A DNA stretch of 63,491 nt, taken from Gaiellales bacterium (lineage in GTDB: Bacteria; Actinomycetota; Thermoleophilia; Gaiellales; JAICJC01). Position numbers and translations under genes: made by a program. Of the stretch, positions 4,308-32,211 are shown piece after piece; the stretch's first letter is position 1; the number at the start of each line of letters is the position of its first letter. The notes beneath the pieces were generated by a model. The model made no database searches and had not been told where the DNA came from. It saw only the letters and a list, made by a program, of their open reading frames with translations. The DNA is taken from the NCBI GenBank assembly GCA_036273515.1, contig DASUHM010000034.1:1-63491 (forward strand), read 5' to 3'.

Positions 4308-5474
4308 CTACGTGTACGGCTGCTGGGAGATGACCACCTCCAGGCCGAAGGCGGCCAGGCCCGTCGCGGCGGCCACCGCGACCCATTCGAGCTTCGTCGG
4401 CCGGTCGCGGAACATGGGGTAGACGAGGAAGACGATCGCCTGCGAGACGTAGAGCGCGACCAGCGAGGGCGTGAGCGCGTAGGAGTACGCCTTCTCCGGA
4501 TCGACCAGGCTGACGACAGAGGTGGCGACGAAGAGCACGGCGATCACGCGGCCTGCCAGCCGCACGGGGACGCCCAGCATGGCCCGCGCCAGGCGCGTGA
4601 GCGCGATGAACTCCGCCACGATCACGGCGCCCACGCTCGCGGCCGCCCCGAGCGCGATCGCCGTCGCCAGGCCGTCTCCCTCGTAGGCCTTGACCAGCGT
4701 GTAGCCGGGCGCCTCCAGGAACGCGAGCTGCGAGGAGCCGAGCGCCGCCATCGGCACGGCCACCAGGAAGATCAGGCCGGCGGTCACCGCCACCGTGGCG
4801 ACGATCGTCCGCCGCACGGTCCGACCGCCGCCCGCCACCTCCGCGCCCAGGTACAGGGGCAGGCTGGCGCAGATGAAGAGCAGCGCGACGTTGCCGGCCC
4901 CGCGCAGCACGGACGGCGGGTGGGCGTGGACGTGGAACGCCGCCGGGTGGACGCCCGCGTGACGGGCGACGACCCCGGCGAGGACGAGCGTGAGCCCGGC
5001 CTGGACGACCGCGACGATCGCGACGAGGACGAACACGAGCCGCTCGGCCAGCAGGATGGCGGCGGCGATCGCGACCGGCAGGCCGATCTGCAGCGCCGTC
5101 TGGTGCGGTCTGATTCCCGGAAACGATTCCGGAAGCTGGTCGTAGACGAGGTAGGTGACCGTGAACGGCAGGTACAGGAAGTAGCTGAACGTCCAGATCG
5201 CGCCGTGGACGAGCGCGGCCCGGCGGCCGGCGGCGCGCTCGACGAACGCGGACAGGCCGCCGGACGAGGCGATCTCGCCCGAGTAGCGCCACCAGATCAG
5301 GAGCGGAAACGCGAACAGGGCCGCGCCGGCCGCGACGGTGAGGCCCATGGCCGGAATCGCCCGGTTGCCGACCGCGTCCGGCAGGTAGAGCGCCGCCAGC
5401 GCGAGCGGCCCGCCGACGCAGCCGAGGGCGAAGCCGGCGAAGAGCGGCAGTGGCAGGGTTCCGCGCTCATCCAC
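4308..5474 (-). CDS. APC-superfamily-like permease
   Basis: This 388-residue protein has about eleven hydrophobic spans and few charges. Features recalling amino-acid/polyamine permeases include an early glycine-rich span (FAGFALGCVGGPLALAALY), a loop with SGGLSAFVERAAGRR after span 2, and an aromatic FSYFLYLPFTVTYLVYD span. The substrate cannot be read from sequence. The start is GTG at 5474; no ribosome-binding site is evident. It follows the cupredoxin gene on the same strand with a 45-bp gap and could be cotranscribed. The VOC remnant begins just past its stop. It could belong to another secondary-carrier family. Confidence 0.5.
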   Translation of the reverse strand: MDERGTLPLPLFAGFALGCVGGPLALAALYLPDAVGNRAIPAMGLTVAAGAALFAFPLLIWWRYSGEIASSGGLSAFVERAAGRRAALVHGAIWTFSYFLYLPFTVTYLVYDQLPESFPGIRPHQTALQIGLPVAIAAAILLAERLVFVLVAIVAVVQAGLTLVLAGVVARHAGVHPAAFHVHAHPPSVLRGAGNVALLFICASLPLYLGAEVAGGGRTVRRTIVATVAVTAGLIFLVAVPMAALGSSQLAFLEAPGYTLVKAYEGDGLATAIALGAAASVGAVIVAEFIALTRLARAMLGVPVRLAGRVIAVLFVATSVVSLVDPEKAYSYALTPSLVALYVSQAIVFLVYPMFRDRPTKLEWVAVAAATGLAAFGLEVVISQQPYT

Positions 5475-5519: not shown

Positions 5520-8736
<3,217 letters not shown>

Positions 8737-28950: not shown

Positions 28951-29490
28951 TCAGTTGAGGCCGGGATCCTCGGGCATCCGAGCCACGAGCCGGTATTCGC
29001 CGCCCTTGCGCTCGAGGACGTGGCTCCAGAGCTCCTCCGCGTCGGCGCAGAACACGTCGCCCGGGAGCGCGGGCTCGACGAACCATGCGTCCTCCTCCAG
29101 CTCGCCCTCGAGCTGGCCCTCGCCCCAGCCCGAGTAGCCGGCGTAGACCCGCACCCGCGTCACCTCGTCGGCGAGGGCGTCCATGTCGGACTCGACGCCG
29201 ATGGGCGCGATCGGGCCGCACACCGCGCCGTCGGGCGGCGGGCCGGCGTACTCGGCGAGCGCGATCACGGCCTGCGGCTGCACCGGCCCGCCCGCGAACA
29301 CCCACCCGTCGTCGAGATCGGCCAGCTCCGGCACCGCGTCGGCCACGGGCAGCTCGGTCGGGCGGTTGAGGACGACCCCCAGCGCACCTTCCACGGAGTG
29401 CTCGATCACGAGCACGACGGTGCGGTGGAAGTTGGGGTCGACGAGGAGCGGGGCCGCGATCAGCAGCTTGCCCTTGAGGGACTCGGCCAC
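28951..29490 (-). CDS. YqgE/AlgH family protein
   Basis: The 179-residue protein has the family hallmarks: GKLLIAAPLLVDPNFHRTVVLVIEH at the N-terminus, GALGVVLNRPTE, FAGGPVQPQ and YAGYSGWGEGQLEGEL. YqgE/AlgH proteins are small cytoplasmic proteins of uncertain role; AlgH was named for effects on alginate expression. The ATG gives the standard N-terminus. It lies 10 bp upstream of the stop of the thiamine-transporter binding protein gene, on the same strand, and could read through from it. Confidence 0.9.
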   Translation of the reverse strand: MAESLKGKLLIAAPLLVDPNFHRTVVLVIEHSVEGALGVVLNRPTELPVADAVPELADLDDGWVFAGGPVQPQAVIALAEYAGPPPDGAVCGPIAPIGVESDMDALADEVTRVRVYAGYSGWGEGQLEGELEEDAWFVEPALPGDVFCADAEELWSHVLERKGGEYRLVARMPEDPGLN

Positions 29491-29500
29491 GACTCGAAGT

Positions 29501-30466
29501 CTAGGGACGCGCGACGAGCGCCGATGCGTCCGGCTTCGACTTGAGCAGCCCGGAGCGGTACATCCAGTCGCCGAACCGCTGCCACGCGGCCGCGTCCAGC
29601 GGCCCGGTGCGAAGCAGCTTGAGCGTCGCCGGGACGCTGGCGCGGATCGTGCCCTTGTAGTCGCGGTAGGCGTGCCCCACCATCACCTGCGTGGCGGCCG
29701 CGGGATGCTTCTGCGCCCACCGGGTGGCCGTCGCCAGCGTCGTCACGAACCTGGCGACGGTGCGCCGGTAGCCGGAGTCGTCGTGCAGCGTGTTCGCGTT
29801 CGCGACGATGACCAGCTCGTCGTAGCCGGGGACGCCGTAGCGGTCGTACGGGAACACGACCGGGTGCAGCCCCTCCCTGGCGAACTGGATCCCCTCGATG
29901 TTCTGGAAGACGCCGGCGACGGCGTCGACGCGATGCTGGAGCAGCGCCGGCACCTGGTTGAAGTGGATGTTCTCGAGGTGGACGTCGGACGGGTCGACGC
30001 CGGAGTGGCGAAGGACGGTGTCGACGAACGCCGTCGTGCTGTTCGAGCCGTCGACCCCGATCGTCTTGCCGCGCAGGTCGGCCGGCGAGCTGACGCCGCT
30101 CGCGCCGGACGCGATGATCGAGCTCAGCGCCTCGGGGGCGACCGATGCCACCGCGACCACCGGGATATGCTCCTGCTGTGCGTAGAACAGCTCCGGCTCG
30201 TAGTCGATGCCGAGATCGGTCGTGCCGGCCGCGACCAGCCGGATCGGGTCGGAGACGTCCGACGGGGCGTGCGGGGTGACGGCGAGGCCGGCGCGGCCGA
30301 AGAAGCCGCGGTCGATGCCGGTGTAGACGCCGACGTGGTCGGCGTTCGGGTACCAGTCGAGCGCAAGGCTGACATCGGTGACCTGGCCGCTCGTGGTGGC
30401 GGCGCCGGAGCTTCCGCCGCAGCCGGCGAGCACGAGGACGGCGAGGAGGGCGAGTGGGTAACGCAT
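29501..30466 (-). CDS. thiamine-precursor ABC transporter substrate-binding lipoprotein (NMT1/THI5-like)
   Basis: The 321-residue protein starts MRYPLALLAVLVLAGCGG, a lipoprotein signal with lipobox LAGC. The NMT1/THI5-like fold follows: LDWYPNADHVGVYTGIDRGFF, then LVAAGTTDLGIDYEPE, GVDGSN and FVTTLATATRW. Members bind the thiamine pyrimidine HMP or formylaminopyrimidine. The ATG at 30466 is used rather than the one at 30475 because GAAGGGA, the 3' strand of the riboswitch just upstream, is well placed as its ribosome-binding site. It is the last gene of the transporter operon and has its own TPP riboswitch. Confidence 0.88.
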   Translation of the reverse strand: MRYPLALLAVLVLAGCGGSSGAATTSGQVTDVSLALDWYPNADHVGVYTGIDRGFFGRAGLAVTPHAPSDVSDPIRLVAAGTTDLGIDYEPELFYAQQEHIPVVAVASVAPEALSSIIASGASGVSSPADLRGKTIGVDGSNSTTAFVDTVLRHSGVDPSDVHLENIHFNQVPALLQHRVDAVAGVFQNIEGIQFAREGLHPVVFPYDRYGVPGYDELVIVANANTLHDDSGYRRTVARFVTTLATATRWAQKHPAAATQVMVGHAYRDYKGTIRASVPATLKLLRTGPLDAAAWQRFGDWMYRSGLLKSKPDASALVARP

Positions 30467-30470
30467 GGCT

Positions 30471-30557
30471 TGCATCCCTTCGCTGGCATGACCCAGATCA
30501 GGTTCGCGGGTCGGCGCTCGTGCGCCCTCTCAGCCCCGTTCGGGACTCCCCGGCAAA
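30471..30557 (-). promoter_or_regulatory. TPP (THI-box) riboswitch 1
   Basis: On the minus strand the conserved thi-box segments appear in order: CCGGGGAGTCCC, GGGGCTGAGAGGGC, GACCCGCGAACCTGATCTGG, GTCATGCCAGCGAAGGGA. CTGAGA and CCTGATCTGG are the pyrimidine and pyrophosphate sensor motifs. The terminal GAAGGGA is also the apparent ribosome-binding site of the downstream binding-protein gene, so ligand binding should block translation. The element lies between the permease stop and the binding-protein start, inside an operon. Confidence 0.95.
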
Positions 30558-30570
30558 CGGTTTGGAGTGA

Positions 30571-31326
30571 TCACTCTACCCGCCGCGCCCACGGGATAGT
30601 CAGGCGCTCGATCAGCGTCACCGCCCCGAACAGCGCCAGCGCGAGCGCGGCGAGCACGACCACCGCGGCGCCGACGAGCGGCGCGTCGTACTGGGCGGTG
30701 CCCTCGCGCATCGCGTCGCCCAGCCCCGAGCCGGAGCCGGCGTACTCGGCGAAGAGGGCGGCGACAGCCGCGTAGGAGGCGGCGACGCGCATGCCCGTGA
30801 AGATCGACGGGAGCGCCCAGGGCAGCTCGACGCGGCGGAAGATGGCCGTCCGCGACGCCCGCAGCGTCCGCATCACCCGCACGTGCTCCGGGTCGACGGA
30901 GCGGAAGCCGTCCAGGGCGGCGACGGTGACGGGGAAGAAGCAGACGAGCGCGACGATCACGAGCTTGGGGGCGAGGCCGAAGCCCAGGTAGATCACGAGG
31001 ATCGGGGCGATCGCGACGACGGGGACGCTCTGCGACGCGACCAGCAGCGGGTAGACCGCCCGCCGCAGCGTCGGCGACGCGTGCAGGACAACCGCCGCCG
31101 CCAGGCCGAAGCCGAGCGCGAGGGCGAACCCGGCCAGCATCTCGCGGGCGGTGACGCCGGCGGCCGAGGCGAGCGGGCCGCGCTCGTCCCACAGCGTGCG
31201 GGCGACGTCGGTCGGCGCGGGCAGCACGTACTGGGGGACGCCCCGCAACCGCACCCACGCCTGCCACGCGGCGATGAGCGCCACGAGCACGACGATCCAG
31301 GCGGCATGGGCGCGGACGTGCTTCAC
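30571..31326 (-). CDS. thiamine-precursor ABC transporter permease
   Basis: A 251-residue BPD-type inner-membrane permease with about six spans. The cytoplasmic EAA-like loop is EHVRVMRTLRASRTAIFRRVELPWALPSIFTG (about residues 141-172), typical of the NitT/TauT/ThiX group. The start is GTG at 31326, overlapping the ATPase stop as GTGA; the longer open frame upstream is just antisense-like low-complexity sequence. It is grouped with the ATPase and with the binding protein that has an NMT1 domain. Confidence 0.9.
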   Translation of the reverse strand: MKHVRAHAAWIVVLVALIAAWQAWVRLRGVPQYVLPAPTDVARTLWDERGPLASAAGVTAREMLAGFALALGFGLAAAVVLHASPTLRRAVYPLLVASQSVPVVAIAPILVIYLGFGLAPKLVIVALVCFFPVTVAALDGFRSVDPEHVRVMRTLRASRTAIFRRVELPWALPSIFTGMRVAASYAAVAALFAEYAGSGSGLGDAMREGTAQYDAPLVGAAVVVLAALALALFGAVTLIERLTIPWARRVE

Positions 31327-32078
31327 CGCAGCGCCTCGAGCGCCCGGCCACGTGCCTCCAGGAAGGGCTCCGACGCGATTGTCTCGGCCCGCTCCCCGCC
31401 GCCGAAGCCGCCGTCCAGCGCGAGCACCACCCTCCCCGGGCGGGCCGACATGACGGCGATCCGGTCGCACACGAGCAGCGCCTCCTCGACATCGTGGGTG
31501 ACGAGCACGGTCGTGCGCGGCTCGGCGTGCAGCGCGTCGCGCAGCCAGGCCTGCAGCTCCGCCCGCGTGATCGCGTCGAGCGCCCCGAACGGCTCGTCCA
31601 GGAGGAGCACGTCCTTGCCGGCCAGGAGCGTGCGTGCGAACGCCACCCGCTGGCGCATCCCGCCGGAGAGCTCCCACGTGCGGCGGCGCTCGAACCCGTC
31701 GAGGCCCAGCCGCGCGAACAGCGGCGCCGCCTCGGCCCTGGCCCGGCGGCGGCCCCGGCCGGCGTTCTCGAGCGCGACGCTGGCGTTCCCCAGGGCGTCG
31801 CGCCACGGCAGCAGCAGGTCGCTCTGCGGCATGAGCGCGCACCGCTCCAGCCGGGCCGGCGCGGCGCTCGCGCCCTCCACCGCCACCGTCCCGGCGGTGG
31901 GCTCCTCGAGGCCGGCGACGATCTCGAGCAGCGTCGACTTGCCGCACCCGCTCGGCCCCACGATGCCGGTGACACCGCCGGCGGGCACACGCAGGGACAC
32001 GTCGTCGAGGGCGACCAGGTCGCCGAACCGCTTGCTCACTCCCGAAAGCTCGATGCCGCCGGGGGTCGCGCTCACCAT
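31323..32078 (-). CDS. thiamine-precursor ABC transporter ATP-binding protein
   Basis: A 251-residue ABC ATPase. Walker A is GPSGCGKST (about residues 40-48), the Q-loop MPQSDLLLPW follows, the signature is LSGGMRQRVAFA, Walker B is VLLLDEPFG, and the switch His is in VTHDVEEA. Family: NitT/TauT/ThiZ-like importers. The ATG at 32078 is preferred to that at 32087 because the riboswitch supplies GAAGGGA upstream. The stop overlaps the permease GTG. It is the first gene of the operon and is governed by riboswitch 2. Confidence 0.92.
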   Translation of the reverse strand: MVSATPGGIELSGVSKRFGDLVALDDVSLRVPAGGVTGIVGPSGCGKSTLLEIVAGLEEPTAGTVAVEGASAAPARLERCALMPQSDLLLPWRDALGNASVALENAGRGRRRARAEAAPLFARLGLDGFERRRTWELSGGMRQRVAFARTLLAGKDVLLLDEPFGALDAITRAELQAWLRDALHAEPRTTVLVTHDVEEALLVCDRIAVMSARPGRVVLALDGGFGGGERAETIASEPFLEARGRALEALR

Positions 32079-32082
32079 GGCT

Positions 32083-32173
32083 TGCATCCCTTCGCTGGCA
32101 TGACCCAGATCAGGTTCGCGGGTCGGCGCGCGGGCGCGCCCTCTCAGCCTCCGCGGAGGCTCCCCGGCAAACG
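32083..32173 (-). promoter_or_regulatory. TPP (THI-box) riboswitch 2
   Basis: A second thi-box precedes the ATPase gene: CCGGGGAGCCTCC, AGGCTGAGAGGGC, GACCCGCGAACCTGATCTGG and GTCATGCCAGCGAAGGGA on the minus strand. The core is identical to riboswitch 1 over its 3' half, including the run GGATGCAAGCC before the ATG. Only the variable P3/P3a arm differs (GCGCGGGCGCG here, GCACGAGCGC there). As in copy 1, the last GAAGGGA is the apparent ribosome-binding site. Confidence 0.95.
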
Positions 32174-32211
32174 TTCCGCCCGAACTCTACGCCCTCGTAC
32201 ACTCCCGGCCT

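Follow-up and report, generated by a model that had tools for sequence, protein, structure and literature searches.

The window analysed here is a 63,491-nucleotide stretch of DNA from a Gaiellales bacterium (assembly GCA_036273515.1, contig DASUHM010000034.1), and it contains a three-gene ABC transporter operon in which two TPP riboswitch aptamers are found (Table 1). The order of the elements along the minus strand is switch, ATPase, permease, switch and binding protein, where the second, internal switch is positioned between the permease stop codon and the binding-protein gene. The two aptamers are about 1.5 kb apart and lie ahead of different genes. The whole analysis was computational.

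Table 1. Features of the transporter operon and their positions in the window
Feature	Position	Strand	Evidence and remarks
Leading TPP riboswitch aptamer	32069..32176	-	Rfam RF00059, 67.2 bits, E 4.9e-11; overlaps the ATPase start; GAAGGGA is the RBS
ABC transporter ATPase gene	31323..32087	-	PF00005; likely start is the second in-frame ATG, 32078
ABC transporter permease gene	30571..31326	-	PF00528; start overlaps the ATPase end
Internal TPP riboswitch aptamer	30457..30562	-	RF00059, 67.8 bits, E 3.5e-11; overlaps the binding-protein start; GAAGGGA is the RBS
Substrate-binding lipoprotein gene, NMT1/THI5-like	29501..30475	-	PF09084, E 3.9e-52; likely start is the second in-frame ATG, 30466
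-10-like hexamer TAGAGT, leading	32184..32189	-	sequence; 7 nt before the leading aptamer
-10-like hexamer TAGAGT, internal	30573..30578	-	sequence; 10 nt before the internal aptamer

Several neighbouring features were also noticed. A gene for a bifunctional homocysteine S-methyltransferase/methylenetetrahydrofolate reductase begins on the opposite strand, divergently, about 35 bp from the leading aptamer (gap 32177-32211), and the TACACT located a few bases 5' of the ATG of this methionine-synthesis gene suggests a leaderless transcript. Immediately downstream of the binding-protein gene is an AlgH-like (DUF179) gene (28951-29490, minus strand), which is adjacent also in the related genomes G001, G003 and G004. 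Between the permease stop and the internal aptamer there is a 12-bp perfect palindrome, GAGTGATCACTC, at 30565-30576, which is missing in G002, a genome of the same genus as the window.

Aptamer identity and overlap with the ribosome-binding site

When the whole window was searched with cmscan, both elements were identified as TPP riboswitches (RF00059) with 67.8 and 67.2 bits, each covering model positions 1-105 of 105. The gathering score of this family is 54.3 bits and a chance resemblance to a TPP aptamer was rejected, as both scores are far over this threshold. The first-pass annotation, made from the letters alone, had proposed two TPP riboswitches in one operon and had suggested an Infernal search in which one of them might fail as a TPP aptamer; neither failed. 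The elements had also been located correctly, except that the leading aptamer extends to 32176. Exactly two TPP aptamers were found in the search of the window's own genome, both of them in the transporter operon. An assembly artefact arising from the 54-nt repeat shared by the two copies is unlikely, since the separate assembly G002 shows the same layout.

In both switch-led genes, GAAGGGA is located just ahead of the second of two in-frame ATGs (GAAGGG-ATGCAAGCC-ATG), and the list of open reading frames begins at the first ATG of each. The first ATG leaves no spacing after the Shine-Dalgarno sequence and the second is therefore the likelier start. GAAGGGA had been described as doubling as the ribosome-binding site, and it is indeed the sole apparent one in both copies. 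The purine-rich 3' conserved region of the aptamer is thus itself the ribosome-binding site, which is the mark of direct sequestration. The AGG of this motif falls in the 3' strand of P4 in the cmscan alignment, and the GCAAG after it in P1. According to folding predictions, both leaders can form the full aptamer, with P4, P5 and a P1 of 6 bp that covers the spacer. The lowest energies predicted without a constraint were lower than that of this aptamer fold by 7 to 11 kcal/mol. We infer the ON state, because the ribosome-binding site is not clearly open in the predicted unbound fold. No intrinsic terminator-like sites were found in the operon, which fits translational control.

The placement of the ribosome-binding site within the TPP aptamer core, known as direct translation attenuation, is described as frequent in Actinobacteria in the available excerpt of PMC2258182. 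The aptamer family and the placement of the ribosome-binding site are the same here but, unlike in the systems of that excerpt, one operon would be controlled by two such riboswitches, each at a different cistron.

Distribution of the switch layouts

The layouts were mapped with a covariance model built here (R1) together with protein matches. From 125 loci, 13 duplicates, 13 loci missing one of the three genes (including L116), 7 without coverage upstream of the ATPase and 1 with another gene order were removed. The remaining 91 complete and distinct ATPase-permease-binding protein loci comprise 63 with a leading switch only, 6 with both switches, 2 with an internal switch only and 20 with none; R1 may have overlooked weak aptamers in the last group. 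The window, which has both switches, comes in addition to these six. Among the loci mapped, the two-switch layout is uncommon.

The six loci with both switches come from two lineages. They belong to G002, to G041, which is from a different family of the window's order, and to a Rubrobacter group consisting of two Rubrobacter, one Rubrobacteraceae and one uncultured actinobacterium (L096, L097, L126 and L145). Internal switches that pass the Rfam threshold were observed in L097 (57.7 bits), L116 (57.1 bits) and G041. Those of L096 (50.9 bits), L126 (39.2 bits) and L145 (44.5 bits) are under the gathering score and were counted for their position and their clear relatedness to the L097 and L116 switches.

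Closer to the window, two genomes of the sister genus (G003 and G004) have the internal switch only, and their ATPase is preceded by an unrelated gene and is switchless. The internal switch can therefore stand alone, as these genomes keep only that copy. On the other hand, G001 of the window's genus has the leading switch only, with a mismatch in its P1 sequence, and there the ATG of the binding protein overlaps the permease stop. The internal switch is dispensable in this sense because a genome of the same genus is without one.

One more locus, L039 of genome G061, was considered as a third case by the spacing of its switches and was rejected, since these precede thiC and thiD rather than a transporter. 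The two genes are on the minus strand with separate TPP switches at 6303-6396 and 4690-4776, 1.6 kb apart, and a cobalamin riboswitch is found at 784-902 of the same locus. In addition, L009 (1506-1583 and 1683-1747) and L014 (1506-1584 and 1687-1765) each have a weaker second TPP-like match about 100 bp further on. These are possibly tandem aptamers, with second copies that score below the Rfam gathering score.

A candidate promoter at the internal switch

The same TAGAGT hexamer was found ahead of both copies, and the internal one overlaps the permease TGA by its last T. The pattern TANNNT occurs before 69 of the 72 distinct leading switches (1.0 expected) and, by script, before 8 of 10 internal switches (0.28 expected). 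For this count, the 26 nt up to where the model match begins were examined, and the expected values come from windows slid along the more distant upstream sequence of each locus. Nine of the 91 switch entries were left out, namely eight duplicates (among them L077, a duplicate of L037) and L078, which has too little upstream sequence. The R1 match begins late in L096 and L097, hence the 8 of 10; by eye, TANNNT is located 9 to 11 nt before the Rfam-assigned aptamer start in these two loci, which gives 10 of 10 for internal switches that come from few lineages and are not independent draws. Among switch-free permease-binding protein junctions, such a hexamer was observed at 7 of 90 within 26 nt centred on the stop codon. 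The binding protein therefore probably has its own promoter at the internal switch, judging from the difference between these two groups. A stricter scan for -35 and -10 elements returned no sigma-70-like promoter anywhere in the operon.

It had been suggested that the binding protein could be tuned apart from the pore. This is plausible and is strengthened by the -10-like hexamer directly ahead of the internal switch. A different reading is that the leading switch alone matters, where the internal copy is a duplicated relic or a mere ribosome-binding site and the binding protein follows its neighbours on a single operon transcript. We regard this as improbable. The leading-only layout is the usual one (63/91), G001 manages without an internal switch and a consensus promoter was not found in the operon, all of which would suit such a relic. 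However, the score of the internal aptamer matches that of the leading aptamer, the internal switch is kept in G002, G003 and G004, in the last two as the sole switch, and the hexamer precedes it.

Relationship between the two copies

The longest exact stretch common to both copies is 54 nt and it ends with the ATG. The identity of the 3' halves up to the ATG, noticed in the first-pass annotation, is thus exact. Between the 5' halves, in contrast, there are differences in 11 of the 48 columns of the alignment, and the 5' half of the leading copy shows 0/48 differences from the leading ortholog of G002. A simple recent duplication of the whole switch was rejected on these two grounds. The leading 3' half has 0/49 differences from its internal paralog and 2/49 from the G002 leading ortholog. 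Two sites are informative, the last base of the L5 loop and the base preceding the ATG. At both of them the leading copy of the window agrees with the internal copies found in its genus, whereas the leading copies of G001 and G002 share the alternative state. From just these two sites, the leading copy looks like a mosaic, as would be expected from conversion of its 3' half by the internal copy. On a small scale, it raises the question of concerted evolution between riboswitches that arose by duplication.

A tree was built from 71 switches over 93 columns, a short length at which many nodes are weak. The leading and internal switches of the window's family, seven in all, group in a single clade of this tree with a support of 0.888, which fits duplication within the family. 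The earlier proposal of recent duplication or gene conversion is partly supported, and recent copying of the whole element does not hold. In the same tree, the internal switches of the Rubrobacter group form a clade of their own and the two switches of G041 are far apart. The two-switch layout likely arose at least twice, as far as these sequences indicate.

The identical 3' halves might instead result from functional constraint on the aptamer, P1 and the ribosome-binding site rather than from gene conversion, and we give this explanation somewhat less than an even chance. The 3' half is the conserved part of TPP aptamers, the two copies of G002 differ at only 2 of 49 columns there, and the 3' halves of family switches from different genomes show 0 to 11 differences. 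Constraint is opposed by the grouping of leading and internal family switches (0.888) and by the internal-copy state of the window's leading copy at both informative sites, unlike the leading copies of G001 and G002, although with two sites this may also reflect parallel change. Taking conversion and the recurrence of the layout together, we tentatively put forward the possibility that a TPP-switched promoter for the importer binding protein alone evolved separately in Thermoleophilia and Rubrobacteraceae, giving more capture protein than pump in an auxotroph, and that the window-family switches have been kept alike by gene conversion (concerted evolution).

Cargo of the transporter and the thiamine pathway

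The operon combines PF09084, PF00005 and PF00528, which is the gene content of a ThiY-type importer. It shares the three-gene composition and the binding-protein family with the ThiXYZ/ThiY-type ABC importers. The best solved match of the binding-protein family profile was PDB 3ix1 (E 4.6e-53), which is named N-formyl-4-amino-5-aminomethyl-2-methylpyrimidine binding protein, and THI5-type enzymes rank lower.

The pathway genes were searched in the window's genome and four relatives of its family (G000-G004), which are drafts of 81 to 98% completeness; single absences are weak in such drafts, yet the five genomes agree. No match was found in these genomes for ThiC (PF01964), ThiE (PF02581), TenA (PF03070), archaeal-type ThiN (PF10120) or thiamine pyrophosphokinase (TPK). 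No ThiD was found above the cut-off of 204.95 in any of the five, where the best score was 32.6 bits (G003) and that in the window's own genome was 19.6. In contrast, ThiL is over its cut-off in all five genomes (for the whole protein of G000, 195.6 bits against 184.15). The family thus appears to consist of thiamine auxotrophs.

A cell that has only ThiL depends on a supply of thiamine phosphate, which may come from uptake or from a thiamine kinase. The cargo is more likely to be thiamine or one of its phosphates, because ThiL is present and the precursor-using enzymes were not found. The nearest solved relative binds a pyrimidine precursor, which by analogy would argue against a thiamine cargo. 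Carriage of a pyrimidine precursor (HMP or formylaminopyrimidine) is accordingly what the PF09084 family and the match to 3ix1, a formylaminopyrimidine-type binding protein, would suggest. We consider it rather unlikely, as ThiE, ThiN, TenA and ThiC gave no match and ThiD none above the cut-off in G000-G004. The importer therefore resembles the ThiY-type in its genes and probably differs from it in cargo, as the route from pyrimidine to TPP (ThiD with ThiE or ThiN) was not found in these drafts. The label of thiamine-precursor transporter given in the first-pass annotation agrees with the protein family and its best match, and is doubtful for a genome without a recognisable precursor-using enzyme. 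In view of the enzymes that were not found, transporters of a class commonly annotated for pyrimidine precursors may in some auxotrophs import thiamine or TMP.

Proposed mechanism

We think it likely that the operon is controlled by two TPP-sensing translational OFF switches, the internal one with its own promoter, so that more capture protein than pump is made for a cargo of thiamine or thiamine phosphate. When TPP is bound, the aptamer would be closed, with the AGG of the Shine-Dalgarno sequence GAAGGGA paired in P4. The closed aptamer would also pair the spacer GCAAGC, between the ribosome-binding site and the ATG, in P1 and ribosomes would be blocked. When TPP is scarce, ribosomes would be able to initiate on both switch-led genes. 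The leading switch would govern the ATPase, and the overlapping permease would follow via translational coupling. The binding protein would be governed by the internal switch alone. A promoter at the permease stop codon would give a short separate transcript that begins with this switch, and read-through from the operon may occur in addition. The predicted outcome is capture protein in excess of the pump under one signal for both. The window-family switches would have descended from one element, and sequence exchange between them may continue.

Should the internal switch have a transcript of its own, riboswitches would determine the ratio of the importer subunits as well as their total amount. 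The natural layouts (leading only, internal only and both) make the idea of a subunit ratio directly testable.

Comparison with known systems

The aptamer, the ribosome-binding-site mechanism and the transporter type are already known, and the two-position layout is a variant of them. According to the available part of PMC12452182, contiguous (tandem) TPP riboswitches precede ssuABC-type transporter genes in Bacillota, and to count as tandem there, the switches must share an intergenic region and regulate the same genes. As in those arrangements, two switches for the same ligand are associated here with thiamine genes but, in contrast to that definition as excerpted, the ATPase and permease genes separate them. 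In the portions of open-licence PMC text that were available, we came across no description of an ABC operon in which two cistrons each have a TPP switch of their own.

A close likeness was observed in the Rubrobacter-group operons (L096, L097, L126 and L145), which likewise have a leading TPP switch and another directly before a binding protein of the same kind. They differ in that other genes are located between the leading switch and the ATPase, such as a TenA-like gene in L145, and in that their internal switches belong to a clade separate from the window-family switches. In L096, ThiT, the S component of an ECF thiamine transporter, and thiamine diphosphokinase are encoded in this intervening region (961-2170). 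Parts of two kinds of thiamine importer therefore seem to be present in the one operon of L096.
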